Shown here: piece by piece, positions 30,301 to 64,000 of the stretch
Layout of the letters: the number at the start of each line of letters is the position of its first letter
Position numbering within the stretch: the stretch's first letter is position 1
NCBI GenBank assembly: GCA_023055425.1
Contig: JALGPY010000001.1
Coordinates: 32,787,001-32,851,000, forward strand
Direction of reading: 5' to 3'
Source: Linanthus parryae
Lineage: Eukaryota > Streptophyta > Magnoliopsida > Ericales > Polemoniaceae
DNA: 64,000 nucleotides
Position numbers and translations under genes: made by a program
The notes under the pieces: generated by a model
What the model was told of the DNA's origin: nothing
What the model saw: the letters and a program-made list of their open reading frames with translations, nothing else
Databases searched by the model: none

Positions 30301-30428
30301 TTTCTTTGTTTATTTGTTTGTTTTTTTTTCCTCTGAAGGAAGTCTCTGGACAATTTCTGAGTTGCTGAAGTTGTGACACCTAGCTCTGGTGAGAAAATGC
30401 CATTTGGGGGGGGGGGGGGGGGGGGTGT

Positions 30429-30465
<37 letters not shown>

Positions 30466-30661
30466 TAGAATATGAAATTTATATTTTACAAAATTTACAA
30501 TTAAACTCCCCTTAATTTTGAAAAATTACATTTTCATGCTCACTTCTCAGGATATCTCAATTCTACCAGAGATCAACTGGTTCTGAGTTTGTGAACATAA
30601 CACAATGGCCAAAAAATTTAGAAATTACTAATTAACCCCCTAGAAATTTCAGGGTGTTACA
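27321..30661 (-). repeat. LARD LTR 2 (middle, chimeric)
   Basis: 3341 bp. Up to about 28701 it shares the variants of LTR 3 (gagtgctgg, aactagtac, gcaatgcacc, aagcccgtagac, gttatgctta, gattgaattgc, acagaaaag). From about 28884 it shares those of LTR 1 against LTR 3 (gaagaac, gggctcag, ctacatgg, ggtttcat, tatgctgt, aactggttc). It carries a G20 then T33 homopolymer tract near 30406-30464. Confidence 0.93.
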
Positions 30662-35500: not shown

Positions 35501-35657
35501 GGCAATGAGGAAGAAGAGGGTGGAAATTTATGTTTCTTTGTTTATTTGTTTGTTTTTTTTTTTCCTCTGAAGGAAGTCTCTGGACAATTTCTGAGTTGCT
35601 GAAGTTGTGACACCTAGCTCTGGTGAGAAAATTCCATTTGGGGGGGGGGGGTGTAGT

Positions 35658-35699
<42 letters not shown>

Positions 35700-35895
35700 G
35701 AGAATATGAAATTTATATTTTACAAAATTTACAATTAAACTCCCCTTAATTTTGAAAAATTACATTTTCATGCTCACTTCTCAGGATATCTCAATTCTAC
35801 CAGAGATCAACTCGTTCTGAGTTTGTGAACATTACACAATGGCCAAAAATTTTAGAAATTGCTAATTAACCCCCTAGAAATTTCAGGGTGTTACA
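32553..35895 (-). repeat. LARD LTR 3 (right)
   Basis: 3343 bp, TG...CA, followed by the right copy of the tttgt duplication. It carries private changes (gtacgaaagg, cttaataacc, ttataccccgg, gaaaaacaac, gggttcag, ctatatgg, aactcgttc) beside those it shares with the left part of LTR 2. G12-T40 tract at about 35640-35698. Confidence 0.93.
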
Positions 35896-35900
35896 TTTGT

Positions 35901-35957
35901 TGTGAATGTTTAATTTTTGTTGTTTGTTTACGGCCTGCGAGCTGATCAATTTGATGT
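35901..35957 (+). other. Remnant between LARD and G2
   Basis: 57 bp between the LARD duplication and the first base of the G2 LTR, probably continuing the copia leader of 21514-22103. The last five bases, gatgt (35953-35957), should be one copy of the G2 target duplication; the other copy is outside the window. Confidence 0.5.
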
Positions 35958-36229
35958 TGTAGATAGTGCTTTCCAGACAGATAGATGTTGGCCACGTGGC
36001 GATCATCCAGCACACCTAGCTGTGCTCCACACGCACTGGATCACCACCCGCGCTGATCCACATGGGGGCTGCGAGACAGGGCCCTCGCATACCACCACAC
36101 GGGAGTTGTAGGGACTTAGTGGTTTGGAGGCTAGAGTAAGTCCTGTCGCGCGCGAGCGACAACCAAGCCCGCGCGCGACCTTTAGTAACTACTTTGAGAT
36201 ATTTATGGCACGAGCCCCATAAACCCGGT
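35958..36229 (+). repeat. G2 gypsy 5' LTR, left part
   Basis: Starts TGTAGATAGTGCTTTCC and runs to CCGGT, where G1 is inserted. The LTR resumes at 51325-51652, giving a total of about 600 bp. It is the reverse complement of the start of the G1 LTR (36584-36856) at roughly 85-90 percent identity by eye, so the same family lies here in opposite orientation. Confidence 0.9.
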
Positions 36230-36856
36230 TGTGCACAAGAGATTCCGGCGGGGAGACCTCCGCGTACACCGTATGTAGAGGATCAGAGATAGCACAGGAA
36301 GATTTGGGTTGTGTGTAGGGAGAGAGTAAGGCAGTAGTAATGTCTGAGAGGGAGACAGAGGTTTGGCAGAGCTTCCGCGTATGGCCAGTGTGTTCTCCTT
36401 TGTATGGAAAGGTTAACGTCCTATATATAGCAGGGAACGTGACCGTTGTAGTGTGGTTAATGTGCCCATTAATGGCGGCTTAATTAGCTTAACCACAACG
36501 GCACGTTCGTCCTCATATATAGGGACCGTTACAGCACGTTTTGCGCGAATACCGGAACCGTTACGAGGTTGACCGGGTTTGACCGGATTGACCGGGTTTA
36601 TGGAGCTCGTGCCATAAATCTCTCAAAGCAGTTACTAAAGGTCGCGCGCGGGCTTGGCTCGCACGCGACAGGGCTTACTCTAGCCTCCAAACCACTAAGT
36701 CCCTACAAGTCCCGTGCAGTGGTATGCGAGGGCTCTGTCTCGCAGCCCCCACATGGATCAGCTCGGCTGGTGATCCAGTGTGTGTGGAGCACAATATGGT
36801 GTGCTGGATGGTTGCCACGTGGCCAAGATCTGTCAGCTCAGAAAGCACTATCTACA
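36230..36856 (-). repeat. G1 3' LTR
   Basis: 627 bp, TGTGCACAAG...CTATCTACA on the plus strand. It contains TATA-like ctatatatag (36421-36430, the same on both strands in its core) and three W-box-like ttgacc motifs at 36569, 36579 and 36588. Compared with 50693-51319 I count about ten substitutions and no indel. Confidence 0.93.
36569..36593. promoter_or_regulatory. Triple W-box-like motif in the G1 LTR
   Basis: Three copies of ttgacc spaced 9-10 bases apart (36569-36574, 36579-36584, 36588-36593). TTGACC/T is the core WRKY-factor site, which makes stress- or defence-responsive LTR activity possible. In the other LTR (51030-51057) the first copy is mutated to ttaacc. Confidence 0.5.
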
Positions 36857-36870
36857 TTAGCCCCCTTTCT
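36857..36870 (-). promoter_or_regulatory. Polypurine tract of G1
   Basis: Minus strand AGAAAGGGGGCTAA directly before the 3' LTR. Confidence 0.8.
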
Positions 36871-37031
36871 GCGCGTGAAGACTCATAGCTGTATAGACTT
36901 CCATGCGCGGAAACCAACATACGCGTCGCCGCCACGCACCAATTCAAATACGGGTAAGTTCAGCCCCCGTGCGTGCCATTATGACCTAAAACCCCTAGAG
37001 TCGTGCCGTCTGGCCTTTAGGGTTTTAGGCG

Positions 37032-37039
37032 TGACGTCA
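37032..37039. promoter_or_regulatory. TGACGTCA palindrome upstream of the accessory gene
   Basis: A perfect TGACGTCA, the core site of plant bZIP/TGA factors, 560 bases upstream of the accessory ATG on its strand. A TATA-like gataaata follows at 37119-37126. Together they are candidate promoter elements for the antisense gene; no transcript evidence is available. Confidence 0.45.
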
Positions 37040-37591
37040 GCTTGTCCTGTGATTGCGCGATTCGACGGTGACGGTTGCGATTCGACTACTGAAAGGACGC
37101 AACCCTTCATTGTTTTTGGATAAATACTTTGTATCCTCCATTGTTGCAAGACATCACTTCTTTCTCTCAAAGTGAATGATACCCGGAAGTCTTCGAGAGC
37201 AGATTCAGATAATTAATCATCAGTTCAGAACTGCAAATCGTCTTCTTCAACTGTGTGTATCCAAGCAGGCTTCGCATAAACAAGGTTGGCCTTGTTCAAT
37301 TTCGATTTAAAATACCAGTGTATGCTTTGAACTATGCTGGATCTGCAAACCCATGACATATTCTCTATTGAAACTTGTGAAGAAGCTTTGATCTTTGAAA
37401 CCCACTTTTGCTTTAATCCTTCGATGATAAGGATCTTGGATAGGGTTTTGAAATCACTGATAATGCAACCCTCTAATTTCTGAAATTGATACCAGAAATT
37501 GTTCATCTTTCTTTCCATAGATCTTGAATCTCGAAATTCAAACTGAAGTGTGGCATATTTCTCCCCCTTTTTTTCTTGCTCTTCCGCAGGA

Positions 37592-40500
37592 ATGGCTAAG
37601 ACAAAAGGAACCAAACCCACCAAGGAGGACGAAGAGATACCTGATCTTCCGCAAGCTTTGTGGCGAAAAGCCCCCTATCTGGGTGGCAAAGATTTCTACC
37701 ACGCAAGGGTTAAGGCGAAGAAATTGCCTGCTTCTGTCCCCAATGAGGGATTGCTAACACTGACTCCCCCAGTTAACTCAGCTTTGCTCCAGTTGATTGG
37801 CTCCGAGGACGTGGTTCGATTGGGAATCGAAAATGGGTACTTCCCCTATGCTGCGATTTCCACCCAAGCTTTTGTCCAGAAATTGGACTACATGGATGAG
37901 TGGATTGACCACGTGTTGACCGATCATGCTGCGACTCTCAATGAAGCCGGCGTATACTTCGCTGTTCGTGCTATGAAGGGTGCTGCCGTGAAGCTGGACC
38001 AGTCCATGCTTCTAAACCTTCTTTCCCGCTACTCGCCTGCGACTCACACTTTTCACTTTGCTGAGTTCGAGGCCGCCCCCACACTCGAGGACGTGCACAT
38101 GCTGTACGATTTGTCTCCCATGGGTGAAGCGGACCCTTTGAGTCCTTTGAGGACGGCTGCAGAGATCGCTTTGTACACGCAGATGGAGGAATGCCTATCA
38201 GAGGTGAAAAAAATCTCCACCCGGTGGACTACTACCAAAGCCCTTCCGAACTGGCAGTTGGTTGATACGTCTGCGAAGAATACATGGAACAAATGGTTGC
38301 AGTACTTCTTTCGTGACTACGCGAACAGCAGCATCACCAAGAAGCTTCTGAGTGAGAACCCAGAGGCCAAGAATTATGTGGAGGGTAAAGGCTATCATTT
38401 GACCCTTTGTGCTTTCCTCTGTGCATGGTTGTCGAGGTACTTAATCGATGGTCACCCACATGATGGGGTCTTCTATCACGTTCTGCCGCTTGCTGTGAAG
38501 CTCGCCCTTGGCCAGAGAGTCGCACTCGGACCCTTGGTCTTGGGCACGCTGTACTATAGACTGGATCAGCTGGTTGCGGCCATGAAGGAGTCGCGTGGCC
38601 GCCTCGATATACTGACTTTCGTCAACATTTCCTTCTTGACGATGTGGGTCTTCGAGCGGTGGCCGTCCTATGCCCCAACTGCTCTTAAGCCCAACAAGTG
38701 GTGTCCCCCAGGCGAGACGGAGGAGCGTAACAGTGGCAGAGCTGCGAGGCGGTTTGGAGCGAACAATACCAAGTGCATTTGGAGCCTGATATGCGACAAG
38801 CGGCAAGAGTTCACTGCCAGGCCCTATGCCACGCGCATTGAGAACGTGCGGTGGTTTCCAAAGCTGTACCCTTATAAGGGCGTCGTCTTCTCAGAAGAGC
38901 TCCTCTTCGAAGAGGGATCGTATTTCCATGAGCGCTATCGCGAGTTCTTTTGCTGGTGTCTGCGAGGTTCCCTTCCTGCCCTCGCAGAGCATATTCGTGA
39001 GCTCGCGCCAAGGTACGAGAGGATTACCGTGGATGTTGACCCCACTCGAGTTTCTCCCCAGTTCGGCTTTGATGCAGTGGCACCATCAATCTGGCCCCAG
39101 TCCATTATCAGAGGTTGCTATAAGCGCTTGCTAATAAAGGAGTGCAAGACAGTTTTCATGAACAATCTTCCCTTTGAGCAGCCTGCGGGTAACCGCGAGG
39201 GCGGTTGTTCCCAGAATTGGCTCGCATACTGGATCGCCCAACAAACGAGGATTGAGACACAGTCGGCCGCCCAGCCGAGTAGAGCTCCCTTGATCAAAAG
39301 AAACTCTTTTCCGTTTCGCCCCAATTGCAGTCTGAGCGAGTCTGAATATGGTTGCTACTCATTGTTGGATCATGAGAACCATTTGTGCCCTGACGTCATT
39401 CTGAAGGAAAAGATCGCCGCAGTTAAGAAAGGCGACTCGCATGTCAGCAGATATAGCGAGACATTTGCTAAGGTAAGCAACTTTTTTTTTCCGCGTGCGT
39501 TAAGCCTCTTGATTTCCACATGTTGATGCCTTTATTCTATACTGTTTGCTGTAGTGCCATGTGCGGAGGTTCGCATCTGGTGATCGTTCCAAATCGCTGG
39601 TTAACACCATTGTTGCCACAAGAAGACAAGGACATTCGTTCCTGCTAGCATCGAGGATGGACCCCGAGGTCGAAACTAGGATTCGCGCAGTCATGAATGC
39701 TTTTGCTGACTCGCTGATAGATAATGTTCCGGTCTCGTCTCCACCCAGAGATAATCCGTCTCCCCCAGTGACAGCCGCGCCGAGAGCGAAGAGACCCAGG
39801 CAAAAGGGAATTACAATTTCTTCCCCTAGGAGTGCTCCAACTTCTCCTCCAGCGAGGTCCCTTTCTGTCAAGGACAAAGGCAAAGGTCGCATGCCCAGTA
39901 GAGCGCGGAAGGAGCTCGCAGTTGAGACCTTTGTTCCATTCAACCAGGAGGAAGAAGAGGAGAGGCAGGAGCCCAGAGAAGGTGATGAAGAAGAAGAAAG
40001 AACAAATGTGATACATGAGGAAGAATCAGGAGGTACCTCCATCGCGTTTCCCTTCTCATTATCGTAATTCTTTTGCAACTCTTTCTTAAACCAATCGTTT
40101 CTTCGCAGATGATGATGATGATGAGACCATCGGTGGCCTTTTGGCCAAGAGACAAAAGAGGAATGCTCATTCTGGCATTCCAGACGAACCCATAAGCGAG
40201 GACGTTCTTGCCGAGTCCAGGAAGACAGCCGCGGAAGCTGCTGAGAGAAGAAGGCAGCGCGAGCTTGTGAGACAGCGGAGCCTCGAAGAGCAACATGTTG
40301 ACGACTTAGTGCGTCCCAATGGCGAGGAAGATATGCTTCCCGAAGAGGTAGCTCCTCAGGCTGAGGAGGAGGATGTGGCTCCAGAAGAGGATGCAGCAGC
40401 TTTGGAGCAAGCCCAAACAGATTTTGAAGAAATCGCAGGCGGCAATAAAGGTGAGATTTTCAATCTCGCAGTAACTTATAGAGATGTTGTAGTGGGTGCA

Positions 40501-41877
40501 TTAAAGCATGGTGTGTCAAAAGCTGACATTCGCCGTTGGCTAGTAGGCAAGTGCGGAGAACCTTCAGGTAATCATTTGAACGATATGCATGGACTAGACC
40601 TTAGCAACTTGGAACAGAATCATGACTGGTTTCTTCGCGTCCCAGGTCACGCTCATTTTAAGGACCTGCTTAATGAGGACACACTAATAGGGCATGGTTC
40701 CAAGTATTTAGTGTATGACGAAGATACTTCAATCCCACCTTCGCGTGGAGGTGCTTGCTCTTGGCTTTAGCAGAGATAGTAAAATAACGTACAATACGAG
40801 TTACCTCATACTATCGCATTTTGTATCGCAGGCAATGCTGAGGAACCTGTGATGGAGCAAAGAAGTCAGCCTTCTGCGTCCTATGTTCCGATTCCGAGTT
40901 CCCATACCGAGAAGTCCGTCGCAGCTGCTGAACATGCAGGAGACCCTCTTGAGGACATCATCGAACTTTCTAATGACGCCGAGGCTGATGCTGTGCTAAT
41001 GGAGGAAGACGCCCATGCTGGCGCTGAGGAAGTAAGGACAGGTACTGTTGATGCATCCGCATCTGAGAGTGTCCCTCGCCAAGCAACTTCGGCTGTTCCT
41101 ACGCCTCCAGCGATGTCTGAATCGGCGGCAGCTCTTCCTGCGTGGAGCTTTTGGGGCTCGCAGGTCGGGAATGCGGTCGCAGCTGGTGCAGCTTATACTC
41201 TTCCTCCCAACTACGAGGGGTTAGAGCTCGCGGCTGACAGGAGAGCTATGGAGCGAGGACGGTCTTCGACCACTCCGGCTATGGGCATTCCTTCTCTTCG
41301 TGAGATCCTTGAAGGAACTGGTAAGTAGAGATTTGCTGTTTGCATCTCGCATTGTTCATTTGCGAGTTTGGTAGCATAACTTATCTTTGACATTGCTTTA
41401 GGTTTGAAGCAAACTGATGTGGACTGGCTAGTTCGGATGCGCCTCACCTACCCCTAATCATTTGAAAGATCTCTGAAGATAGGGCCCTTCGACAGGAGGC
41501 TGTTTCTCACCGAAGCCATTTGGATTTTGGAGTAGTTGTCTGCGGCCACGCCTGCGACCATTTCTGTCCAGAGTGTCGAATTGCTTTTTGGCATGTGCCA
41601 AAATCTTCTTGCCAAAGTCCAAGGCAGATTGGGTTTCAGATTTCTTATGAAAAGAGTTACCCTGATTCGCGCAGCCGTAACTTTGAAACTCGGCCACCAA
41701 AACCTCGCAGCTGAGAAGCAGAAGGTGGAGCAGCAGAAGCAAAATGCTGAAGAGGCTACGAAGCTCTATCATGAGATGAATGCCAAGTGCGAGCAATTAA
41801 AGCAATAAGTGGAGCAGGTAGAGAAACTGAGCCATCAGTTCGCCCCTAGTGACTCCATGATCAAGAATTTGCTCTGA
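37592..41877 (+). CDS. Antisense accessory gene of G1: plant mobile domain-like protein, six exons
   Basis: Opposite strand to gag-pol, between the repeats and the 3' LTR. Predicted exons: 37592-39472, 39555-40032, 40109-40567, 40646-40750, 40832-41320 and 41402 onward. All introns are GT-AG, 76-82 nt. Exon 1 (627 codons) resembles the aminotransferase-like plant mobile domain: HTFHFAEFEAAPTLEDV, LCAFLCAWLSRYLIDG, FVNISFLTMWVFERWPSY and VRWFPKLYP. Exons 2-5 are acidic and basic low-complexity regions (KRPRQKG, EEEEERQ). The last exon has W-L-V-R-M-R followed by a coiled coil (KQKVEQQKQNAEEATKLYHEM). In-frame stops at 41455, 41533 and 41806 truncate the product at about 1155 residues, but G2 is open at the first and third of these. 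The start follows a polypyrimidine-CAG, so a 5' UTR intron is possible. Function unknown; host PMD proteins (MAIN/MAIL1) act in the nucleus in gene expression and TE silencing. Confidence 0.8.
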
Positions 41878-42290
41878 CTTTTTGAATTTGAAAAGTAGCA
41901 AGGAAATAGCAGGAACATTAATGTAATGCTGAAACATTAATGTAATGTTGCTAGGGTTTCTCCCCCCCTTTTTTTAACAAAAGAATCGACATGCCCGTTT
42001 TGCCCCTTTCCGGGATTTGATAGGATATCTCTGTGCATATCCAATTATGACATCAGCAATTGATACTCTGCTTGATTTTCGCGCTAATTTCTCGCAAGGT
42101 AAGCACGCTTTCCTTGGGAAGTCCATCCGAATCATGACCATCCGTCATTAATTAGGATACGCAACTGAATCGTCGTAGCCTTTAGTAGGGTAATTGATCG
42201 TTACCGCTTTTCAAGGCGTAAGTGATTGACCTTACCCTCTTTTCAAATTCTGCTGACTCATCTTGGCAACTGAAGAGTCCCCACAAGGTC
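41878..42290. other. Spacer between the two antisense units of G1
   Basis: No coding signal. It contains aattaatgtaatg-type A/T motifs (41920-41950) that could serve as a plant polyadenylation region for the accessory gene, and conserved stretches shared with G2 (59450-59700 inverted). Confidence 0.45.
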
Positions 42291-42298
42291 TATATAAA
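42291..42298 (+). promoter_or_regulatory. Conserved TATA box of the second antisense unit
   Basis: TATATAAA in ggtctatataaaccctg. The same box occurs on the corresponding strand of G2 (59338-59348, minus), followed in both copies by ttgggttcttcatcccaaaa about 20 bases on, which is the expected region of a transcription start. Confidence 0.6.
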
Positions 42299-42375
42299 CC
42301 CTGTCTTTGTCATTTGGGTTCTTCATCCCAAAAATGTGCTTTGCCGTGAGTCCTTACGACTGCTAGCTTCAACGC

Positions 42376-42681
42376 TTGTTTTTCGTTGATTCATGGCAAC
42401 TCCAAGTTGTGAATCCTGAGTTTGCGCTTTGTGCTATAGAAATAGTTTCCAAGATCCGCTTTATGAGGCTTTTTTCTCTTTATAACCATCGTAAAGAAGA
42501 TGGATATGATATCTCATGTATGTTCGAAGAATTTTCTTCGTGTATTATGTTTGCAGGTCATGTTTCCGGCCGCCTCCCGGTGAGGTGCAGCGCGGTAGTG
42601 ACCGTGCTACCGATTCGTAATGAACGGCGGAATTCTCCTCCAGCATCCCTGGAGGAGATTTTACTGCCCCCACGTTCGTGA
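42376..42681 (+). CDS. Second conserved antisense frame of G1, unknown
   Basis: A short frame of about 100 codons on the accessory-gene strand, downstream of the conserved TATA box. It aligns without gaps over about 88 residues with the G2 frame 58957-59337. Shared residues include PEF, CAIE, EDG/EDF, ISC, IMFAG, SG-LP-R, LP-RNE and LEE. A stop sits just upstream at the point where G2 has Trp. A TTTGCAG acceptor-like site within the frame (about 42546-42556) is also conserved. No known family. It may be a small protein, or exons of a longer or non-coding transcript. Confidence 0.35.
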   Translation: MFFVDSWQLQVVNPEFALCAIEIVSKIRFMRLFSLYNHRKEDGYDISCMFEEFSSCIMFAGHVSGRLPVRCSAVVTVLPIRNERRNSPPASLEEILLPPRS

Positions 42682-43322
42682 GCTCAGGGTGGCGAACCGT
42701 TGCGTTCATCCCCGTCTACAAGGAACCCTTGCCCTTCGGAGCTTCTGCTTGCCTGTTGAACGCCGGAACCGGTGGTTCCTCAAGCACATCTCATGGGATG
42801 TTGGTCAGACAAGGGTCTTGTCAAATACTGGGATCTTGAACGTATGGCTTCATGTGGCTCTTTAGAGCAAGACCCCACTTGCGATAGATGTTCGGCCGCA
42901 GATTTGTGCATCGCATAGCCGGTGTTAGGACCGTTGGGTTCATCCCTTTTCAGTCAGGATTCCCGTGGTGTGTCACTGCTGGCTTGTCAGTTACTTTTCG
43001 AATGTATTATAAGCCATGTTGGCTGCGTAGTTAGATTTGAGCTTTCTCGCTTGTAAGCTGCTATCTAGACAGATAAATTGTAAGTCTTTTTTACTCATAA
43101 TGATAAATAGCTTTTGTATTAGCTGCTGTGTCATTACAACAAAATACAATTTCGCATGCGTGTTGGTATATTTCGCCTTGTGTAATGCTATATACATACT
43201 TCGCATTTGCTATCTGCCGCAAAAATTCGCAGATATCTTATTAGATCGTTCGAGATCGTATTTGCGCAGTTGTGCCATCTTGGCAGATGGGCTTGTGGTT
43301 TGCTTTCAGATTCAAATGTAAG
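42682..43322. other. G1 3' region, no gene seen
   Basis: Non-coding stretch between the second antisense unit and the tandem repeats. Frames are short and not shared with G2 as far as I can see. Confidence 0.4.
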
Positions 43323-44100
43323 TGCTATCACATCAGATAGACCCTTGCAGATCACTTAAGATCATTTTGCATAATGTTGCTATCACAATAGATAGGCTGA
43401 AGGACGAATTTTAGATCCCATTCGTATGACGCTGCTATGATGGCAGATAGACTTAGAAGATCGTTTTACGATCATGTTACGCATATATTGCTAGCGTGGC
43501 AGATAGGTTTTGGAAGATCAATTAAGCTCGCTTTTCGCATGAGTTGCTATCGTAGCAGATAGGCTTTAGAAGATCAATTAAGATCGTTTTTTCGCATGAG
43601 TTGCTATCATGGCAGATAGGCTTTAGAAGATCAATCAAGGTCATTTTGCGTAGGCTGCTATCGCGGCAGATAGGCTTTAGAAGATCAATAAGATGGCATC
43701 TGCATATGCTGCTATCGTGGCAGATAGGTTTAGAAGATCAATTAAGATCGTGGCTGCTATCGTGGCAGATAGGCTTAGAAGATCAATTAAGATCGCAGTT
43801 GGCATAGGCTGCTATCGTGGCAGATAGGCTTTAAAAGACCGCATTTTGCATAGATTGCTATCGTAGTAGATAGACTTAGAAGATCAATCAAGATCGTATT
43901 TCGCATAGATTGCTATCGTAACAGATAGGCTTAGAAGATCAGTTAAGATCGCATTTCGCAATGGGTGCTATCGTAGCAGATAGGCTTCGAAGATCAATCA
44001 AGATCGTATTTCGCGTAGATTGCTATCGTAACAGATAGGCTTAGAAGATCAGTTAAGATCGCATTTCGCACAGATTGCTGTTGTGGCGGATAGCCCATTG
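43323..44100. repeat. Tandem repeat block of G1 with hairpin core
   Basis: About 15 units, mean spacing about 54 bp (range roughly 42-62). Each has a core of the form gctatcgtggcagatagg, in which ctatc and gatag form a small hairpin, and a variable arm such as ttagaagatcaattaagatcg plus a cgcat... segment. G2 has the same core in about six units at 58236-58520. Hypervariable tandem repeats in the 3' untranslated region are known in Tat-lineage elements. Confidence 0.85.
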
Positions 44101-44154
44101 TTAACAGTAATAACAAACTAAATGAAGCAAAATTAACAGCCAGAAATATGAAGT

Positions 44155-44240
44155 TCTCATTTGGGAAAATTCTCTTATTATAATGCTCTCATATGGGAGA
44201 GATGAGATTACAATTCTCTCATATGGGAGAGGAGATTGTG
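44155..44240. repeat. Palindromic ctctcatatgggagag motifs after pol
   Basis: Near-palindromes ctctcatatgggagag occur twice, plus a weaker third copy (ctcatttgggaaaa), 60-150 bases downstream of the pol stop. G2 keeps cccatatgagg / ctctcatatgaggg / ctcccatctgag at 58105-58180 in the same place. They may mark the 3' end of the pol transcript or of the opposing transcript. Confidence 0.55.
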
Positions 44241-44301
44241 TAAATCATAGCCATACAAGACATTAAGCGACGTTATAATAAAACGCATGAAATGAGAGAA
44301 G

Positions 44302-45201
44302 TCAAGGATAGTACTTCTTAATCCAGCGCATGTTGACTGAACTCGGGGTAGAGGTTGTTCCGTGCAACCTTCGTATGCTGCAGTAGCCACTGTCAAATAC
44401 TTCTGTGACTTCGAAGGGTCCTTCCCAATTGGCTGCGAACTTTGGGTGAGCTGCTTCTCGCATGCAATGGTCAGATGCGCGCAGGACCAAGTCTCCAACT
44501 GCGAAATCTCTTCGCTGGACCGTCTTATTGTAAGCACGAGCGATCCTTTCTTGATATCGCTTGTTGGTCCTTTTGGCTTGTTCTCGCTTCTCCTCCAGCA
44601 AGACTAAGTCATGATCGCGTTGATTGTCGTATAGTGCGTGGAAGGCCAATCTCGCCGAATTGACTCTCACCTCCGCAGGTACCACGGCCTCGGCCCCATA
44701 GCATAGTAGGAATGGTGAGGCCCCCGTGGGTGTCCTTGGAGAAGTTCGGTAAGCCCACAGAGCTATGCTTAGAGAATCAGCCCACTTCTTGTGGTCATCT
44801 GCGACCATCTTGCTCAAAATCCTCAACAACGTTTTGTTGGTCGCTTCGGCTTGCCCATTCCCTTTCGGGTAGTAAGGGGTAGAACATATCTGCCTGATAT
44901 TGTACTCTGCTAACTTCGCAGCTACCTGGCGATTAACAAAAGGAGTACCATTATCTGAAAGAATGGTGTTTGGAATTCCGAACCTGCATATGATGTTTTC
45001 TTGGATGAAATTGACCACAGCTAGCGCATTTGCCGTCTTCAGTGGTATTGCCTCCACCCATTTGGTAAATAGCTCAGTTGCGGTGAGAATAAAATGATTC
45101 CCGTGCGATGTTGGTCGGATGGGACCAATGAAGTCTAGAGCCCATGTGTGAAATGGCCATGGCGTTCCAAATGCATGTAGATCCACAGCGGGAGCGTGCA
45201 C
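44302..45201 (-). pseudogene. G1 integrase core and C-terminus
   Basis: A 299-residue frame with the retroviral integrase core: Asp in WALDFIGP, Asp in LSDNGTPF and Glu in GNGQAEATNKT, then LPLW-like SIALWAYRTSPRTPTG and the C-terminal region (GDLVLRASD, NWEGPFEV, RWIKKYYP). It is in the same frame as upstream pol but separated by stops: TGA where G2 has a Gly codon (about 45209) and TAG at 45271. It follows RNase H, the gypsy order. Confidence 0.9.
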
Positions 45202-45270
45202 TAGGTTTCATTTGAATTGGCACTCCTGGCAGCGTCGTACCTTGGTGCGACAATCAGCCTCCATCGTGGG

Positions 45271-45711
45271 CTAGAAATATCCAATTGAGAGGAGCTGCCT
45301 GCATAATTTCGCACCTCCTTGATGCTCCACCTGATGAGAAAGGTCCATGACTTCTTGTGCTTCCCTGTCGTCTAGACATCGCAGCAAGTTGCCCTCATGG
45401 CCTCTTCGCCAGAGCAGGTTTTCTTGTACTACGTATCGAGATGCTTTCCTCTTCAATTTCTCAGCTTCTTTTCTCGATTCGGGCACGGTGCCCTGGGTGA
45501 GAAAGTCAAAGAGTGGCTTCCTCCAATCCATGTCATCATCAGTTAGAGCGATGAGTAGAGAATCTTTGATCAGTGCGCAACTTTCGCACTTCCCCTGTAT
45601 CAGGGCCGCGGCTGTTGACATGTCTGGCCAATGAATGCCATATCTCTGAGCCTTCCGATAGATTGACACCTCGCTTTCTCCGCAAGCATGTTGGTGAATC
45701 TTTTCTAACAA
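45271..45711 (-). pseudogene. G1 pol, integrase zinc-binding region
   Basis: A 146-residue frame continuous in phase with RT upstream and integrase downstream. It carries KWRRGHEGNLL-like LLWRRGHEGNLLRC and the His pair of the integrase HHCC zinc site (LSHQVEHQGG); the Cys pair (CRTKVRRCQEC) follows beyond the TAG at 45271-45273, a codon that is Trp in G2. The upstream stop at 45736 (TGA) is Cys in G2, so each break is a lesion of this copy. Confidence 0.82.
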
Positions 45712-45735
45712 CAGTTGTCCCTCCTGCTCGGAGAC

Positions 45736-48027
45736 TCATCGCATGAGTATTCCACCAGGACCTTTGTAGTAAAGGGTGTTGTCATGTATGCAATACCCCT
45801 TTGTGAGTGCCCAGCTTTCACTGCTTGTGCCTTCTGCGATAGCTTGTAAGACTGTTTTTCTCCAGTCTGTTTCATCCATGTGTTCATCGTCGCACGCGTC
45901 TTCTGTCAATGCCGACGATGTTCGCACTTCGATCGAGATCCTCGCGGGACATTTGTCTGTGCTGACCTTAGATCCCAAGGTAGCCAAAGCATCTGCATGC
46001 CTGTTGTCTGCTCGGGGCTTGTGCTCGTACCTCACATCGCAGAACTGTTGCACAAGCTTCTGTACCAGAGTCCGGTAGGACAGAAGGTGTATCTCCTTCA
46101 AACCGTATTCGCCCGAGGCTTGCTTGACGATCAACTTGGAGTCTCCCATGACCGTCAGATTGCTTACTTCCAAAGCCTTCGCTGCGCGCAGTCCTGCTAT
46201 GAGGGCTTCATATTCTGCCTCGTTGTTGGTGACTGCGAAGTCGAGCTTTGCGGACATCTGTATGACCTCTCCATCCGGCTTGGTCAAGACTATCCCAATG
46301 CCTCTGCCTTTCCTTGTTGACGAACCGTCGAAGTGGAGCGTCCAATAGGGCACATCGATTGCATAGATTTCAGGTCCTTCGAGCTCTTCTTCGATCACGG
46401 GCTCGTGGCTGTTGTCGGGGAACTGTGCCAACAGATCCGCTACCGCCTGCGACTTGATCGCTCTCGGTCGCACGCATGTGATATCGTATTGAGAGATGGT
46501 CATGTACCATTTCGCCAATCTCCCTCCAGGAGTAGTGTGAGTTAGCAGATATCGTATGGGATCGCTCTTGGTGACCACTACCACTTTGTGCGAGGCAAAG
46601 TAGTGTTTCAACTTCTCTATCACGAAGAACAAAGCAAGGCAATGACGTTCGATGTCTGTGTCCCTTGATTCAGCAGGCTGCACAATGTGAGAGATATAGT
46701 AGATAGGCCTCTCTTGGCCTTCGTACGCCTGAGCCAAGAGTGCTCCTATGGACCTCCTAGTTGACGTCAGATATAGCAGAAGCGGTGATCCCAGTTGAGG
46801 TGCGATCATTATTTTTGAAGACTTCAGCAGATCCTTCAGCTTTTCGAACGCAGCTTCGTGCTCCGGAGTCCAGCTGTATACGACATCTTTCTTGAGAAGG
46901 GCACTAAAACAGCAGGTGATTTCGGCAATTGCTGGGATGAATCTCCGCAGATATGATAGCTTTCCCAAAAATGTTTTCAAGGCACTTTGGTTATGGGGCG
47001 GCGTCATGCCAGTGATGGCTGATACTTTCGCAGGGTCAGGCTCGATTCCTTGGCGATGAACCACGCATCCCAAGAACTTCCCTGATGTTACCCCGAATGC
47101 GCATTTCATAGGATTCATCTTCAGTTGAAAGCGTCTACATCTATTGAACACTTTTCGCAAATCCGCGAGGTGATCTGCTTCCTGCTTGGATTTAACCACC
47201 AGGTCGTCCACATAAAATTCCACTTCTTTGTGCACAATGTCATGGAATAGGGCCATCATGGCCCGCTGATATGTCGCACCCGCGTTTTTGAGACCGAACG
47301 GCATCACTGTGTAGTTGAACACCCCCACCGGAGTGATGAATGCAGTCTTCCGCGCATCCCCGTGGTCCATCTTGATCTGGTTGTACCCACTGAAGCCGTC
47401 CATGAAACTGAACATGCGATGGCCCGCCGTTGAATCGATAAGCAAATCGATGTTGGACAGTAGAAAATCGTCCTTTGGGCAGAAACGATTGAGATCCCGG
47501 AAGTCCACACAGATGCGAAGCTGTCCGTTCTTCTTTACCACTGGCACGATGTTGGCCAGCCATGTGGGATGATGATTCGGCTCTTTGAACTTGGCATCCA
47601 AGAGTTTGACAATCTCCTGTTTGATCTTCACGTTAAGCTTCGGCCTGAAGCTTCTTGTGCTCTGCTTTACCGGTTTAGACCCTGGGATGATGTCTAAACG
47701 GTGCATAGTGATGCTTGTATCCAGACCTGGCATCTCATCATACTCCCATGCGAACACATCCTTGTATTCAGTTAGGAGCTGTAGCAGTCCTTGCTCCTCC
47801 TCGCTTGTGAGGTCCGCACTTAGAAAGACTGGCCTTTTCTTTTCCTCGTTCGGGCTGAGGAACACTTCCTTTAGCTCTTGCTTTTGTGGTCTGGGCCTAT
47901 CCTCCATGCATTCAAGTGCTTCTTTGAGCTTCTCGTCTGGAGTGCTCTGCATTGGCTCTTCCGTTACCGCGATCTGTTCGATTTGGTTGATTTTCCCAGG
48001 GATGTCCCCATGCCCGTGTGAGGACAT
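45736..48027 (-). CDS. G1 pol: reverse transcriptase, RNase H, second RNase H
   Basis: A 763-codon frame. RT: LDVIPGS-like LDIIPGSKPVKQ, VKKNGQLRICVDFRDLN, FSFMDGFSGYNQI and the catalytic EFYVDDLVV near residue 271. The first RNase H (gypsy type, LLLYLTSTRRSIGALL, IERHCLAL) is weakly conserved. The second is an archaeal-type RNase H from about residue 563 (LHFDGSSTRKGRGIGIV, TNNEAEYEALIAGL, GDSKLIVKQ, ADNRHADALA), a hallmark of Tat-lineage elements. The frame opens after the in-frame TGA ending gag-protease, so expression needs readthrough, reinitiation or splicing. It ends at TGA 45736-45738. Confidence 0.93.
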   Translation of the reverse strand: MSSHGHGDIPGKINQIEQIAVTEEPMQSTPDEKLKEALECMEDRPRPQKQELKEVFLSPNEEKKRPVFLSADLTSEEEQGLLQLLTEYKDVFAWEYDEMPGLDTSITMHRLDIIPGSKPVKQSTRSFRPKLNVKIKQEIVKLLDAKFKEPNHHPTWLANIVPVVKKNGQLRICVDFRDLNRFCPKDDFLLSNIDLLIDSTAGHRMFSFMDGFSGYNQIKMDHGDARKTAFITPVGVFNYTVMPFGLKNAGATYQRAMMALFHDIVHKEVEFYVDDLVVKSKQEADHLADLRKVFNRCRRFQLKMNPMKCAFGVTSGKFLGCVVHRQGIEPDPAKVSAITGMTPPHNQSALKTFLGKLSYLRRFIPAIAEITCCFSALLKKDVVYSWTPEHEAAFEKLKDLLKSSKIMIAPQLGSPLLLYLTSTRRSIGALLAQAYEGQERPIYYISHIVQPAESRDTDIERHCLALFFVIEKLKHYFASHKVVVVTKSDPIRYLLTHTTPGGRLAKWYMTISQYDITCVRPRAIKSQAVADLLAQFPDNSHEPVIEEELEGPEIYAIDVPYWTLHFDGSSTRKGRGIGIVLTKPDGEVIQMSAKLDFAVTNNEAEYEALIAGLRAAKALEVSNLTVMGDSKLIVKQASGEYGLKEIHLLSYRTLVQKLVQQFCDVRYEHKPRADNRHADALATLGSKVSTDKCPARISIEVRTSSALTEDACDDEHMDETDWRKTVLQAIAEGTSSESWALTKGYCIHDNTLYYKGPGGILMR

Positions 48028-48039
48028 CCCCGCGTACCT

Positions 48040-50652
48040 TCATATGCGATAGCACTTCTTCCCATTGGCGTAGAAGCTCTCTATCTCCTTGCCTTCGGGG
48101 TCATGCTTTGCAATTCGCTTCAGCGTGTACACACTCTTTCGCTGATACACGATTCGTGGCGCCTCTTCGCGTGTGGGCGGCTTTTCCTTGGCATCTTCCC
48201 TTGTCACCATTACTCCCGCCGGTGACTGATCCTTGATATCCTCCCACAGAGGTAAAAGAGTAGGGTTGAATAGTCCCGGTGTTTGCTCGTCCGCCATCTC
48301 GGTGAACCACACCGCCTCGCTGAGATGTGCTTCGTCCAGATTGAATGGATTTGTTGAAGCGGGTATCTCGACTATTCTATCGTTCCAGATAGCTTTCATG
48401 ACCTGGTGAGCTGTTGAAGGGACCGCGTCAAAGCGATGAATCCAGGCTCGACCTATGATCATGTGATACGTAGTGTTCGCATCTATGACATAGAACTTCG
48501 CTGAGCACTTGATTTTGCCAATCTGAACGCCCAGGCGGATCCATCCGATCGTCATTTTAGAGTCGCTTCCAAATCCCATCAGCGGAGATGGACGCCTGAC
48601 AATCTTGTGCTCGGGGATCCCTGCTAGCTTCAGTGTGTGGAGCGAAACGACGTTGACCGCTGCTCCTCCGTCTACAAATGCTCGTTTGAACTCAACACCA
48701 TTGATGATGGCTGTCACATACAGAGGCCTCTGGTGGCTCTCATCCTTCTTTTTATCGCTGGCAGAAAAGGTCATAATCTTTTCTGTATAACGAGATGCCC
48801 TGATGACTTTCCCGTTGGAGACTACAAGATCCTCTTCGTAGTCCTCTGCTATCCTTAAGATCGCTTTCGTCATTTCTGTCCGGCATTTCTCCGAGAAGTT
48901 CATCTCGTCGAAGAATCTGCTGAAGCCGTGCGACCCCTTCATCCGGTCAGCACGTTCATCCTCTGTGTCCATGCTGTAGTCCTCGTCTTCATGGACTTCG
49001 GCAATGATGGGTAGACCATCCTCTGCTACTTCTTCCAAGTCCACAATCGAGATCATGGCGACCTCTTTTCCTTTCGAGTCTTGCTCCGCATGGGCAGGAA
49101 GTGGATTGTTGCGCACATCCTTCCTGTGATCGCTGACGATCAGCTCACCGTTCTTCATCTTCTGTTTGAACACAATCCTGAGCTTCTTACATTCCGCTGT
49201 AGGATGCATGACCTTGCCGTGGTATTCGCACCACTTCGGGTCCCTCACCATCTCCTTGGAAGGTACCTTTTCGAGCGGTGGCAGGACACCGTCCTTGCGC
49301 CATTGTCTGCAGAGATCGCTTGCCTCCTCCACCGAACATGGCAGAGGTGGTACGTCGAAGTTCACAACCTTCGCCTGCTTCTGGGGTGAAACTGTATTGA
49401 CCTCAGCTTCGCGTCCCCTCTTGTAACTGAATCTCCCGATTTTGTAGGTGGTACCGCTCGCAGATCGCTCCGGAGCGTTCTTCTTTTTCTGCCTCTCAAC
49501 TATAGGCTCGATGTTTTTCGTGCACTCGATGAGCTTTGAAAACGTAGGTGTTTGCAGATTAATGAGCATACCTTTGTATTCGTCTCGCATGCACTGCAGG
49601 CATATTTCTACAAGTCGGCTTTCGAGCATTGGATCCTTGCATTCCAAGGACTTCGCCCTGAATTTCTTCATGAAAGTGATCCCGTCCTCCTCGCGCTTTT
49701 GATACATCCGCGAGAGATGGATCATTGTCACCTTTTCTTCCATCTGGAAGAACTTGGTACAGAACTTCTGGACCATGTCGTCCCAAGTCTTCACAGATCC
49801 GGCTTCCAACGTTTGGTACCACTTGTACGCTACGTTCCCCAAAGATTTTGGGATTTCTCGCATCAGCAATTTGGGATCAGCTCCGTATGGCCCCATGACA
49901 TCGATGAAACGCATGACATGCTCATGAGCGTTCCCGTTGACATCCTCGAACTTGTCCCATTTAGGAGCCTTATACCCCACCGGGTTAGGCATGAGATAGA
50001 TCTCTCGCGGGATGGGTGGATCGTTGTCTAGCTTCGGGATGATGGTATCCGCGAATGATTGGTGAGCCAGAATAGTATCCATGCGCTTCTGCAGAGACGT
50101 CATGCATTCTGGAATGCTTCCCTCGGTAGCAGAAGGAGGGTTTGCCGCAGGCGGAGGCGACACATAGGCCGCCGAAGGATTGGGGACATATTGGCTGCTC
50201 GCATTGCCCCAGATCGCCGTTGGAGGAGGCAAGGGGTACTGTGAAGCCGGGTTAGATGCCAAAGCCGGAGGCTAAGGATTGTGAGCAGTGAGAGGCAACA
50301 TTTGAGCTGTTGACCCCTGAATTGAAGGTAGCTGCGTAGTCACCGGTGGAGTCTGCAGGTTAGGGTTGGGAGGTGTTGTTGACACTCCCAATCCCGGAGC
50401 GGTAGGGGCTCCTCCTCCTTGAGAGACGGCGGCGGCTGATGAAGGGTTTGGCGCAAGGGTGCCCAGAACGGCCAGGATCCGTTCTAGCTGCGCAGACTGA
50501 GCCTTGAGAGCTTTCGCCTGACTTTGGACAGTGGCGTCCAAGGATTCTAGCGTCGGTGCCTCGCCGGGAGTCGTAGGAGTACGGCGTGTCTCCTCTCCCG
50601 AGGCAGTTTCGGTGGAGGGCGATCTGTTGCTGATATCATCCTCCTGAGACAT
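48040..50652 (-). pseudogene. G1 gag-protease
   Basis: ATG at 50650-50652 (MSQEDDISNRS), chosen because the matching ATG exists in G2 (51692). Order: Ser/Thr/Pro-rich N-terminus, capsid-type Retrotrans_gag (DVNGNAHEHVMRFIDVMG, WYQTLEAGSVKTWDDM), a Tat-type knuckle (CEYHGKVMHPTAEC), an acidic linker, and an aspartic protease with FVDGGAAVNVV in place of the usual DTG/DSG. One in-frame TAG at 50272-50274 interrupts the N-terminal Pro/Gln-rich region; the G2 codon there is Gln. The frame ends at TGA 48040-48042, in phase with pol. Confidence 0.88.
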
Positions 50653-50670
50653 GGTTGCTTTTGTTGGTAA

Positions 50671-50689: not shown

Positions 50690-50692
50690 AAA

Positions 50693-51319
50693 TGTGCACA
50701 AGAGATTCCGGCGGGGAGACCTCCGCGTACACCGTATGTAGAGGATCAGAGATAGCACAGGAAGAGTTGGGTTGTGTGTAGGGAGAGAGTAAGGCAGTAG
50801 TAATGTCTGAGAGAGAGACAGAGGTTTGGCAGAGCTTCCGCGTATGGCCAGTGTGTTCTCCTTTGTATGGAAAGGTTAACGTCCTATATATAGCGTGGAA
50901 CGTGACCGTTGTAGTGTGGTTAATGCGCCCATTAATGGCGGCTTAATTATCTTAACCACAACGGCACGTTCGTCCTCATATATAGGGACCGTTACAGCAC
51001 GTTGTGCGCGAATAACGGAACCGTTACGAGGTTAACCGGGTTTGACCGGATTGACCGGGTTTATGGAGCTCGTGCCATAAATCTCTCAAAGAAGTTACTA
51101 AAGGTCGCGCGCGGGCTTGGCTCGCACGCGACAGGGCTTACTCTAGCCTCCAAACCACTAAGTCCCTACAAGTCCCGTGCAGTGGTATGCGAGGGCTCTG
51201 TCTCGCAGCCCCCACATGGATCAGCTCGGCTGGTGATCCAGTGTGTGTGGAGCACAATATGGTGTGCTGGATGGTTGCCACGTGGCCAAGATCTGTCAGC
51301 TCAGAAAGCACTATCTACA
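50693..51319 (-). repeat. G1 5' LTR
   Basis: 627 bp, nearly identical to 36230-36856. It carries the element promoter; TATA-like ctatatatag lies at about 50884-50893. Its right end abuts the ccggt duplication and the rest of the G2 LTR. Confidence 0.93.
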
Positions 51320-51324
51320 CCGGT

Positions 51325-59708: not shown

Positions 59709-62700
59709 CTAAAATAAATCCTTGGTTAAAGGATCTTCCGGAGAAAATGGGAGCAATGCCTCTTTCGTCTGGTTCACTTCCTGTCTCAACTTATCATACT
59801 TGGCCTTCATCGCATGAAAGAGGTTGGCAGCTTCTTCAGCCTTCTGCCTTTGTTCCTCTAACTTCCGTCTCTCAGATGCGAGTTTGTGGTAGCCATGTTT
59901 CAGAATCACAGATGCGAGGATCTGGGTGACCCTGTTGAGAAGGTACCCGGAGCCTAGTTTGCCTTGAACTTTAGCTTGAAGTCCCCTGCATGTGCTATAC
60001 TGCAACCGTGCATTATCAGGAGAAATGGTTACAGGGGTAGCTACAGATGGTTGTTCTAGAATTCAGATGGCTTCAGTCAAGAAAAGCCTTCTATCATAAG
60101 GTTCCAGCTCCAGAGATCTCGCAAATGGCCATGGATATGAGAGGCACATCCTTATTAGCCAATCCACATCGGGATGCCTCATTCCTGGAAAAAAAGTAAA
60201 AATAAATAATAAGTTCAGGAGCGCGAAGTGATTAAACGAAAAAATATAGAATGCAAAAAATGGCAACATACATGTTCCTTCATGGATGTCAAGCAAAGAG
60301 GGAATGCGCATCACTGGAAAAGCATAAGCATGACCTTGCTGCATTGCTTGCATGTCAGCTGCAACCTCTCGCTCATCATAGTTGGCAGGGATGGTATAAG
60401 TTGCAATAGGTGTGACGACAGCTCCAACTTGCGAACTCCAAAAACTCCATACCGGGGGGACTTGTAAAGGTTCCACCTCGGTGGAAGGAACAGAGGGACC
60501 TTGTGGAGGCTCAAAGACATTCACAGGAATGGCAGCACCTGAAGAAGTATGTGAAATAGTTTCAACAGCGACTGTGTCTTCCACTTGCTCAGGAAATTCT
60601 TCATCCGCGAGAGGTCTTTGTGGCTCAGGAGCATCCATTTGAACATCGACATTTTCATGCGATGCTATGTATTCCATGATCTGTTCATTCCCATGAACTT
60701 CAGCTCCAGCCTACTCCGCTTCCATTTCCTCGACTTCATCATCAGCATCTTCCTCCCTTAACACAGTATCAACATCAACATTATCAGATACCTCGATAAT
60801 GTCCTCCAGAGGTTCTCCTTCATACTTAGTAGCTGCGAAAGGCTTCTCAATATGTGAACTTCGCTCTGGGGCATAAGATGTAGGAAGCTGATTCCTCTAC
60901 TCCAGCATGTCCTCATCAGGGTTGTCAACACCTGCCTCGCTGATCACCTCTCTAGCAGTTGATACATTATCAACAGAACCCTGTGCGATTACAGCATCAC
61001 CTGCGATACAAGACAAGAAACTGTTGAGGTAAACTTGCGTTATACATGGTATTTTTTTTATTCTTATAGATCAAAAGTGAGCACCTCCACACTTAGGTGG
61101 GATCGCAGCTCCGTCATCATATGTTAAAGATGCGACACCATATCCTACTAGAGTATCTTCATTTAGCACATCTTTAAGGTGAGCGTGACCTGGTGGTGCG
61201 AAGAAACTCTTTATAATAGGGAGTAGGTTACCAAGCCTGGTTTACAAACATTGTTTGAATGATTACCTGAAGGTTCGCCACACTTTCCTACCAGCCATCG
61301 GCGAATATCAGCTTTTGATAAGCCATGCTTTAATGCACCAATAATTACTTCTTGATAAGTCACGTCAAGGTTAAAAATCTTACCTTCCTTGCCGCCTGCG
61401 ATCTCTTCAATGTCCTCCTGGGCATGTTCCAAGGCAGCCACGTCTGCATTATCAGCGGGTTGTTCTTCCAAACTTCTCCTTTTCATGAGCTCGATGTCAT
61501 CTTCCTCGAGCTTTCTCCTTCTCTCTTCTGATTCAGCATCCATCCTCTTAGACTCAGCAATGATGTCTTCGTCTATAGTCTCGCTAGAAATGTCAGAGCG
61601 AGAGCCTTTGACCTTTTTCTTCTAAGGTTGCTGATGGTCTCTGTGTCATCATCTGCGAAAGAAAGATGATCAACAATCATTTCAAAAGCCAAAGTGCGAA
61701 GAAGACCAGTTTATTTATACATACCTTCTGAGTTTTCTTCTCTTATCTCATCTCTTTCTTCTCCTATTTCGCTTTCTCCTCTTTCTTCTTCATCATCTTC
61801 TTCTCTCACCTCTCTTTCTTCGTCCTCCTCTTCCTCTTATTCCGGACCAAAAGGAATGAAGGTCTCAACCGCGAGCTCTTTCTGCGTCTTGCCTGGCATG
61901 CGGCCTTTGCCTTTGTCCTTGGATGCAAGAGACTTCACAGGAGACGGAGTTGGAGCATTTCTAGGAGGGGAGGAGATCACAATCTCCTTCTGCTTTTGCC
62001 TTTTGGCCTTTGGGGCAACCTCTGCATCCGCTTCGGCAGCATTGTCTATTAGCGAGCAAGCAAACACGTCCATTTCCTCACGTATCCGAGCTTCTACTTG
62101 GGGAGCCAGTTCCATTGTCACGGAAATTTTCTCGTCTTGCCTTTTTGCGGCAACAATAGAGTTGACCAGCGATTTGGAGCGTGCTCCAGATGCGAACCTC
62201 CTCAGATAACACTAAAACAGAAAATGGGGTGTAAGTTTCAACACGCCAAAAGAAAGAAGTTTATCACGCATAAAGGAAAATTGTTTGCCTTGGAAAAATC
62301 TTCGCTATACTTGATCACGTGCGAAATTCCCTCCCTAACAGCAGTCATCTTCTCCCCAAGAATAGTGGCTGGGCACAGGTGATTGTCAGAATCAAGCAAG
62401 GAATAAAAATCATATTTGGAATCATCCAAGCTGCAATTGGGGCGGAATGGAAAGGCATTCCTCTTAATCACAGGAGCTTTACTGGGGGTAGGAGTCGAAT
62501 GCGTCTGGTCTGCTGAGCAGTCCAGTAAGCGATCCAATTCTTGGAAGGGCGACCTACACGACTACCTGAAGGTTGGATGAAGGGCAAGTTGCTCAGAAAG
62601 ATCGTTTTGCACTTACCCATCGTTTTGCACTTACCCATCAGCAGTCGCTTGTAGCAATTCCTTGCAATTGACTTAGGCCAAATGGAAGGCGCCACTGCAT

Positions 62701-64000
62701 CAAAACCAAACTGGGGAGAGACGCAAGTTGGGTCAACGTCGACTTTGATCTTTTCATATCTGGGAGTTAGCTCAGAAACATTTTCGGCAAGAGCAGGAAG
62801 GGAACCTCTCGAGCAACAGCAGAAGAATTCGCGATAGCGATCATGCCCTTTGAGAAGGAGCTCTTCTAAGTAGGAGCCAGATCTAGTGGGGTACAGCTTC
62901 GGAAACCATCGCACATTTTCAATGTGTGAAGCATAAGGCCTAGCTTTAAACTTGCTCCGGTCATCGCATATCAGACTCCATGTGCACTTGGGAAGATTGG
63001 GTCTTAACCATCGAGCAACTCTCCCATTGGGAAGTTCATTCTCCGCACCTGGAACGCACCACTTACTGGGCCTAGAAGGAACAGGAGCATAAGAGGGCCA
63101 TCGTTCGAAAACCCACATGGTAAGAAATGCAATGTTGACAAAAGTCAACACATCAAGACGCCAACGAGAGTCCTTGATCGCCACCACGAGCTGGTCCAAT
63201 CGATGATATAAGGTGCCTAGTACTAGAGGCCCAAGTGCGACTTTCTGGCCAAGGGACAACTTAACAGCTAGGGGGGAGAACATGGTAGAAGACCCCATCA
63301 TGAGGATGACCGTCGATCAAATACCCCGACAACCAGGCACATAGAAAGCCGCACAAGGTCAGATGATACCCCTTCCCCTCTATGTAATTCTTCGCTTCTG
63401 GATCCTTATCCCGAATTTCCTTGGTGATACTACCATTCGCATAGTCGCGAAAGAAGTATTGCACCCAATTTCCCAAAGTGTTCTTCGCGGAGGTCTCAAC
63501 TAGCTGCCACTCAGGAAGTACTTTCGCAGATGTCCATCGGGTAGAAATTTTCTTTACCTCGGTCAAGCACTCCTCCATCTGCGCATATAAAGTAAGCTCT
63601 GGACCAGGTTTCAAAGCACTTAGGGGATCTACTTCGCCCATAGGAGAAAGATCGTATAGAATTTTAACATCTTCCAAATTGGGGGCAGCTTCAAATTCAG
63701 CGAAGTGGAAGGTGTGGGTCGCAGGTGAATAGCGAGAAAAAAGGTTTAGAAGCATGGATGGATCCAGCTTCACGGAAGCACCCTTCATAGCACGAACTGC
63801 GAAATAAATCCCAGCATTGTCTAATGTGATAGCGTGGTGGGTCAAATACATGGTCAATCCACTCATCCATCAAATCCATCTTTTGTACAAAGGCCTGGGT
63901 AGAAATTGCAGTATGAGGGAAGAACCCATTTTCAACTCCTAACCTTACCACATCCTTGGAATCGATTAACTCTAACATGGCTGCAGTGGTAGGCGGGGTC
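59709..64000 (-). pseudogene. Antisense accessory gene of G2: PMD-like protein, partial, broken
   Basis: Counterpart of 37592-41877; the N-terminal 60-70 codons are outside the window. PMD-like exon: 62289 to beyond 64000 (HTFHFAEFEAAPNLEDV, LCGFLCAWLSGYLIDG, FVNIAFLTMWVFERWPSY), with frameshifts near 63850 and 63270 and another near 62490. Introns at 62212-62288, 61653-61724, 61190-61266, 61001-61084 and 60185-60271 coincide with the five of G1; the first has a GC instead of a GT donor. The coiled-coil tail (59709-60005) follows a TGA near 60063 that is Trp in G1. A stop inside intron 3 and different lesions from G1 imply that the spliced frame was the ancestral one. Confidence 0.8.

Follow-up and report, generated by a model that had tools for sequence, protein, structure and literature searches.

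In a 64,000-nucleotide stretch of Linanthus parryae DNA (contig JALGPY010000001.1; the whole stretch is called the window here), a large Ty3/gypsy retrotransposon, G1, carries an additional gene at 37592-41877 (+), between pol and its 3' long terminal repeat (LTR), with gag-pol on the opposite strand. The window also contains a distantly related element, G2, and the comparison between the two makes it very probable that this antisense gene has a spliced six-exon structure. With the same high confidence, the alignment argues that the gene was formerly under purifying selection at the protein level, over a divergence at which synonymous sites are saturated. Plant mobile domains (PMDs) in Gypsy elements and antisense open reading frames (ORFs) in Tat elements were known before; the new part is the conserved intron structure and the selection on it.

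The predicted exons lie, all on the + strand, at 37592..39472, 39555..40032, 40109..40567, 40646..40750, 40832..41320 and 41402..41877. They are joined by five introns of 82, 76, 78, 81 and 81 nt, each of which runs from GT to AG in G1. Exon 1 offers 627 open codons, whereas the longest ORF in any of the six frames of 1000 dinucleotide shuffles had a median of 135 and a maximum of 251 codons. Exon 2 contains a basic sequence, KRPR, that resembles a nuclear localisation signal (NLS), and the sequence DKGKGRMP, which is common to G2. Exon 3 is acidic and then passes into a stretch well conserved with G2 up to KADIRRWLVGKCGEPSG; exon 4 is short (34 codons), and exon 6 would encode a putative coiled-coil end. 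Up to the final stop (41875-41877), the joined exons comprise 1295 codon positions, and the first in-frame stop of G1 comes after 1155 amino acids. An earlier note on this DNA had placed a gene of roughly 1150-1300 codons at 37592..41877, between tandem repeats and the 3' LTR of G1. Both its size and its position stand, 41877 being the last base of a stop codon that occurs at the same place in G1 and G2. Ahead of exon 1, an acceptor-like site (37574..37591, +; TTGCTCTTCCGCAG followed by GA ATG) comes after a T-rich tract, two bases before the start codon. Among the 10 donor-like sites listed in the stretch ahead of the start codon, the sole GTAAGT is that in CGG/GTAAGT, with its GT at 36954. 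Together they give a weak hint of an intron in the 5' untranslated region, at a place where G2 lies off the window.

The homologue in G2 that the earlier note had also reported is borne out by the alignment: it has the same place relative to pol, the same orientation, and the same frames and introns. Its exon 1 (62289..64000, -), recognised from the alignment and from profile matches to the PMD family PF10536, is frameshifted and has its start off the window. Exons 2-6 occupy 59709..62211 (-), at about 62211-61725, 61652-61267, 61189-61085, 61000-60272 and 60184-59709, as read by eye off the alignment. In the G1/G2 alignment the conserved frame is interrupted five times; every interruption coincides with a GT...AG pair in G1 and falls at the equivalent position in G2. 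The corresponding splice sites of G2 include one GC donor and an intron 2 acceptor displaced by a few alignment columns; the remainder are GT/AG. Of the three forward frames, the predicted one is closest to G2 in amino acid identity in all six exons (0.73 versus 0.40 and 0.37 in exon 1; 0.43 versus 0.36 and 0.27 in exon 5). An excess of differences at third positions is significant in exons 1, 2, 3 and 6. The introns have no codon periodicity (63/50/63, p 0.38) and, when pooled, are T-rich, with a T fraction of 0.37 versus 0.22 in exons 2-6 (0/20000 random draws). The count of six exons proposed before is thus supported, in so far as frames and junctions of the predicted gene match between the two copies. 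Chance ORFs were considered as a source of these frames and ruled out by the shuffles, the frame identity and the codon periodicity.

Differences between the two copies are concentrated at synonymous sites. In exon 1, the synonymous difference (pS) is 0.726 and the replacement difference (pN) 0.156 over 562 codons. Over all exons the values are 0.674 and 0.204 (1184 codons; 55 more dropped for gaps, junction-spanning codons excluded, and the first 53 codons excluded as the window end truncates G2 there). The resulting omega of 0.14 (bootstrap 0.10-0.17) is a rough guide, because synonymous sites are saturated. As controls, exon 1 was read in its two remaining forward frames, for which the ratio was 1.15 and 2.24 (21-37 stops per copy), and in the reverse frames, for which it was 1.08, 2.72 and 0.20 (8-27 stops). 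Constraint is stronger in gag-pol, where pN is 0.098 in gag-protease, 0.091 across the reverse transcriptase (RT), RNase H (RH) and second RNase H (aRH) and 0.052 in the integrase (INT). There, 69-80% of synonymous sites differ between G1 and G2; omega is 0.057 for gag-protease and is not computable for RT and INT, whose synonymous sites are saturated. For the dN/dS comparison between copies that the earlier note had suggested, replacement change therefore falls far under synonymous change, in two copies rather than in many.

Besides this saturation, several observations weigh against the gene as modelled. Taken alone, exons 4 and 5 show no significant third-position excess (p 0.21 and 0.078). 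Introns 3 and 4 are just mildly T-rich (0.28 and 0.32), and raw identity separates exons 5-6 (0.64) poorly from introns 1 and 3 (0.61 and 0.60). The low ratio of one reverse frame counts in the same direction; that frame, at 0.20, has 22 stops in G1 and 19 in G2, and its register mirrors the coding codon register. The selection estimate comes from two copies only, both of them broken. In G1, the antisense gene has in-frame stops at 41455, 41533 and 41806, all in exon 6, and pol has premature stops at 45738, 45273 and 45210; in G2, frameshifts affect exon 1 of the antisense gene, and exons 2, 5 and 6 contain stops. AlphaFold, given exon 1 and two G2 pieces, returned an unusable model (pLDDT 30.5). 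Finally, no relatives of the antisense-gene protein were found at E 1e-3 among about 8000 candidates preselected by shared 5-letter words, which is weak evidence of absence. Run with pol, the same search did find plant relatives: of 7957 proteins scored, 4644 reached E 1e-3, and the best among the 120 listed was from Camellia sinensis (56%).

The selection described here is thus history, as read from two broken copies. Three stops fall in the 158 codons of exon 6 of G1 and none in the preceding 1137, and from this clustering we judge that the C-terminal end may have been lost earlier in the G1 line. With these stops, any protein from this copy would lack its C-terminal part and measure a predicted 1155 amino acids. 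One could ask whether the gene is a recently captured host PMD gene, or a passenger devoid of function. Its introns resemble those of an ordinary plant gene and both copies now carry stops, as such an origin would have it. Yet the same gene occurs at the same place, in the same orientation and with the same introns in two elements 69-80% apart at gag-pol synonymous sites, and is hence old, while its codon pattern points to constraint over much of the G1-G2 divergence. We regard capture or passenger status as very unlikely.

G1 spans 36230-51319 (-) and is bounded by 627-bp LTRs with TG...CA ends and a 5-bp target duplication, CCGGT, at 36225-36229 and 51320-51324. Its 3' LTR (36230..36856, -) is 98.4% identical to its 5' LTR (50693..51319, -), with 10/627 sites differing. 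In the element's own sense, the order is gag-protease, RT, RNase H, second RNase H, integrase, tandem array, conserved block, antisense gene and 3' LTR. The insertion site of G1 is the 5' LTR of G2, the other of the two large Ty3/gypsy elements in the window, which has the opposite orientation. The pieces of the G2 LTR on either side (35958-36229 and 51320 to about 51650) have 88.7% and 80.5% identity to the G1 LTR, and G2 extends beyond the window end at 64000. Such nesting could in principle mean that an ordinary host gene had been invaded by the elements, for which proximity alone speaks. The gene, however, lies inside G1 as bounded by LTRs and target duplication and recurs in G2, where its position with respect to pol is unchanged, which rules this explanation out for practical purposes.

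The product of exon 1 matches PF10536 over residues 127-499. The ORF that contains it (37592-39523) scored 92.6 bits (E 3.7e-26; gathering score 34.9), so the resemblance to the plant mobile domain noticed earlier passed the profile check. One G2 piece (63261-63869) scored over the cut-off with 36.3 bits and another (62468-63316) under it with 32.6 bits; for exon 1, a match to DUF7745 stayed under the cut-off of that family (19.1 bits against 26). The acidic segments that had likewise been pointed out are present as stretches of low hydrophobicity with 22, 18 and 15 aspartate or glutamate residues per 50 at residues 751-800, 851-900 and 1001-1050. NLS-like basic clusters lie at residues 706, 800 and 833. 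The putative coiled-coil stretch of exon 6 lies past the first G1 stop, and its G2 counterpart has sub-threshold family matches only, to families that we take to be helical or coiled-coil. With a limit of E 10, PF04195 (TRP28) matched neither exon 1 nor three ORFs covering most of exons 2-5; with a limit of E 1, it matched neither exons 2, 3 and 5 nor one piece of exon 6. A search of the PDB by sequence gave nothing credible (best E 0.37), and NCBIfam gave no match for exon 1 or for the gag-protease frame.

The antisense layout offers a simple reason why a gene with introns can ride in a retrotransposon. A sense-oriented gene with introns would tend to lose them through reverse transcription. 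In G1, the splice signals of the gene are antisense to the genomic RNA and unused in it, so that the introns would survive every reverse-transcription cycle; the layout, together with established splicing rules, would explain their survival. In the pathway we propose, the antisense transcript would begin near the 3' LTR and be spliced in the nucleus. The product would be a nuclear protein with a PMD head, an acidic disordered middle and, in a complete copy, a coiled-coil or helical C-terminal tail. On balance, we think that it is probably a nuclear accessory protein of the element.

What such a protein would do is a more tentative matter. The host PMD proteins MAIN and MAIL1 silence transposable elements together with PP7L (PMC7156037, PMC5418596), and in tea 175 loci of phased small interfering RNAs (phasiRNAs) have been reported at PMD genes (PMC10673657). 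The earlier note had suggested an anti-silencing or decoy role. Our first choice is that the antisense PMD protein competes with host PMD proteins of the MAIN/MAIL1-PP7L silencing module, or redirects them, and so aids the persistence of the element. We put this forward as a possibility that may well prove wrong. If it is true that the protein blunts host PMD silencing, element-borne PMDs would be linked to the MAIN/MAIL1 pathway. A further step, which we consider improbable, is that Tat elements carry an ancient intron-bearing antisense PMD gene for counter-defence against heterochromatin silencing, and that the host MAIN/MAIL genes are domesticated forms of it. The ancestry of Gypsy PMDs relative to genic PMDs has been called fully open (Ikeda et al., PMC5418596).

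The same spliced gene and protein may instead serve the element's own cycle, by tethering it to chromatin, bringing its pre-integration complex into the nucleus or regulating its transcription, as has been proposed for antisense proteins of the TRP28 and Grande gene23 type. Selection at the protein level fits such a role equally well, and the NLS-like basic clusters count for it. In line with this, Retand antisense proteins have been argued to be DNA-binding regulators (PMC11963269), and the antisense protein of Grande is nuclear (PMC7264820). On the other hand, the Pfam scans gave neither a DNA-binding domain nor a TRP28 match for the G1 protein. We give this role the same odds as our first choice, as a tentative proposal rather than a likely one.

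Between the antisense gene and the tandem array lies a conserved block (42118..42657; about 58980-59520 in G2), which has 62-87% identity to G2 per 60-nt bin and whose conservation exceeds that of the antisense-gene introns. It contains a TATA-like sequence, TCTATATAAACC, at 42289-42300 on the + strand, which reads antisense in G1 and G2 alike. The block is possibly a promoter for antisense RNA over the tandem array and pol. We considered whether the block holds a second coding gene and rejected this, as there is no codon periodicity in 42100-42230 and 42330-42712 (42231-42329 lay outside the test). The TATA-like site also counts towards the idea that the antisense RNA itself is active, forming double-stranded RNA with the genomic RNA and so limiting copy number, a role that has been proposed for antisense ORFs generally (PMC7264820). 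The codon-level constraint with frame changes at introns speaks against it, being unneeded for an RNA role, though both may coexist, and we consider RNA as the active product unlikely.

The tandem array itself, between pol and the antisense gene, has a unit of about 55 bp at 43708..44093 in G1, with more copies by eye to about 43300. Its units are unlike those of the array at 58237-58523 in G2, and a short palindromic core (CTATCTGC...GATAG) is common to both by eye.

The gag-protease frame of G1 (48040..50271, -) matches Retrotrans_gag over the cut-off and Asp_protease under its cut-off, and ends in a TGA common to G2. This TGA lies in frame at the passage from protease to RT (48042-48040, -, in G1; 54292-54294, +, in G2) and has the context CGCATATGAAGGT in both. 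The start codon of the second ORF of G1 was not seen at the equivalent position in G2, and readthrough or splicing may thus be involved. The RT-RH-aRH-INT frame (44302..48039, -) holds RVT_1, RT_RNaseH, RVT_3 and rve, identified with Pfam in the ORFs 45736-48027 and 44302-45201. RT_RNaseH (residues 414-514) is followed by RVT_3 (566-683) and then by rve in the next ORF. Angiosperm Tat elements are recognised by the additional RNase H that lies between RH and INT (PMC6317226), and from its predicted domain order G1 is a Tat-type Ty3/gypsy retrotransposon, as the earlier note had it.

Within Tat, G1 has features of two groups. As in Retand, an antisense ORF lies between pol and the 3' LTR. In Retand, however, that ORF contains TRP28 in all but two of 63 tabled clusters (97%; PMC11963269), whereas G1 has a PMD and no TRP28 match, and the pol-3' LTR stretch of G1 (7,445 bp, 44301 to 36857) exceeds the Retand range of 2,933-6,566 bp (PMC11963269). 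Ogre elements have an extra ORF with a PMD in 57% of cases (PMC6317226), and a PMD is likewise found in G1. In Ogre, the gap between the gag-protease and pol ORFs averages about 274 bp (an intron in pea and Medicago); in G1 there is instead the single in-frame TGA. With a Retand layout that lacks TRP28 and an Ogre domain without the Ogre gag-pol gap, we file the element under neither. The primer binding site (PBS) of Ogre is complementary to tRNA-Arg; that of G1, TGGTGAACCCGACGTGAA, may fit plant tRNA-Trp.

Several parts of this gene have precedents. Gypsy-only PMD clades, A1 and A2, have been described (Ikeda et al. 2017, PMC5418596), and these and the Ogre PMDs (Neumann et al. 2019, PMC6317226) represent, like G1, PF10536 in an angiosperm-type Ty3/gypsy element. 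In the text available to us, the published Gypsy and Ogre PMD ORFs are tied to neither orientation nor introns, and the words 'intron' and 'exon' occur 0 times in that of PMC5418596. Neumann et al. defined extra ORFs as ORFs of at least 250 codons (PMC6317226); under such a cut-off, a gene of the G1 type would appear as exon 1 alone, and about half of the protein would be missed. Antisense coding regions are present in all Retand clusters studied (PMC11963269). Those of Retand, Grande (gene23) and RIRE2 share with G1 the antisense orientation, the position between pol and the 3' LTR and, often, neighbouring tandem arrays; their products have been proposed as nuclear regulators (PMC11963269, PMC7264820). 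The G1 gene is predicted to bear introns, and the word 'intron' occurs 0 times in the available text on Retand (PMC11963269). The same source calls the function of antisense ORFs unknown, and a review of accessory ORFs calls for a search for antisense and spliced transcripts (PMC7264820). The host PMD-C genes MAIN, MAIL1, MAIL2 and MAIL3, of which MAIN and MAIL1 act in the silencing of transposable elements, share the PMD; they are genic rather than element-borne and are set beside the G1 gene by domain only. HBZ and APH-2 of HTLV, whose antisense promoter lies in the 3' LTR (PMC7264820, PMC11963269), provide an analogy of function, as antisense accessory proteins in a retroelement, with no homology implied.

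The suggestion that the combined architecture might be undescribed is therefore overstated. In our literature search we met no description of a conserved antisense PMD gene with several exons, although orientation or introns may be described in Steinbauerova 2011 and Gomez-Orte 2013. Gypsy PMDs and antisense Tat ORFs, by contrast, are in print, as is the anti-silencing idea, published for MULE-borne PMDs (PMC5418596). To this the locus adds a concrete six-exon model backed by comparative evidence.

Exon 1 had no pattern match among viral contigs, the pol alignment had 37 there with no relative confirmed, and a plasmid search gave no match. Against genome contigs, the pol alignment found seven loci in prokaryote records, one at 45% and six at 30-38%, on contigs of 3-9 kb. 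Rfam (at gathering scores) and tRNA scans of the window gave no matches. Elsewhere in the window, a unit of roughly 5.2 kb occurs in three tandem copies that adjoin the G2 5' LTR at about 21950-35940, mostly at 97-99% identity with some stretches lower. Two Ty1/copia-type copies and a LINE-type reverse transcriptase region were recognised by eye from translations at 1-2855, 17454-19500 and 4295-9735.

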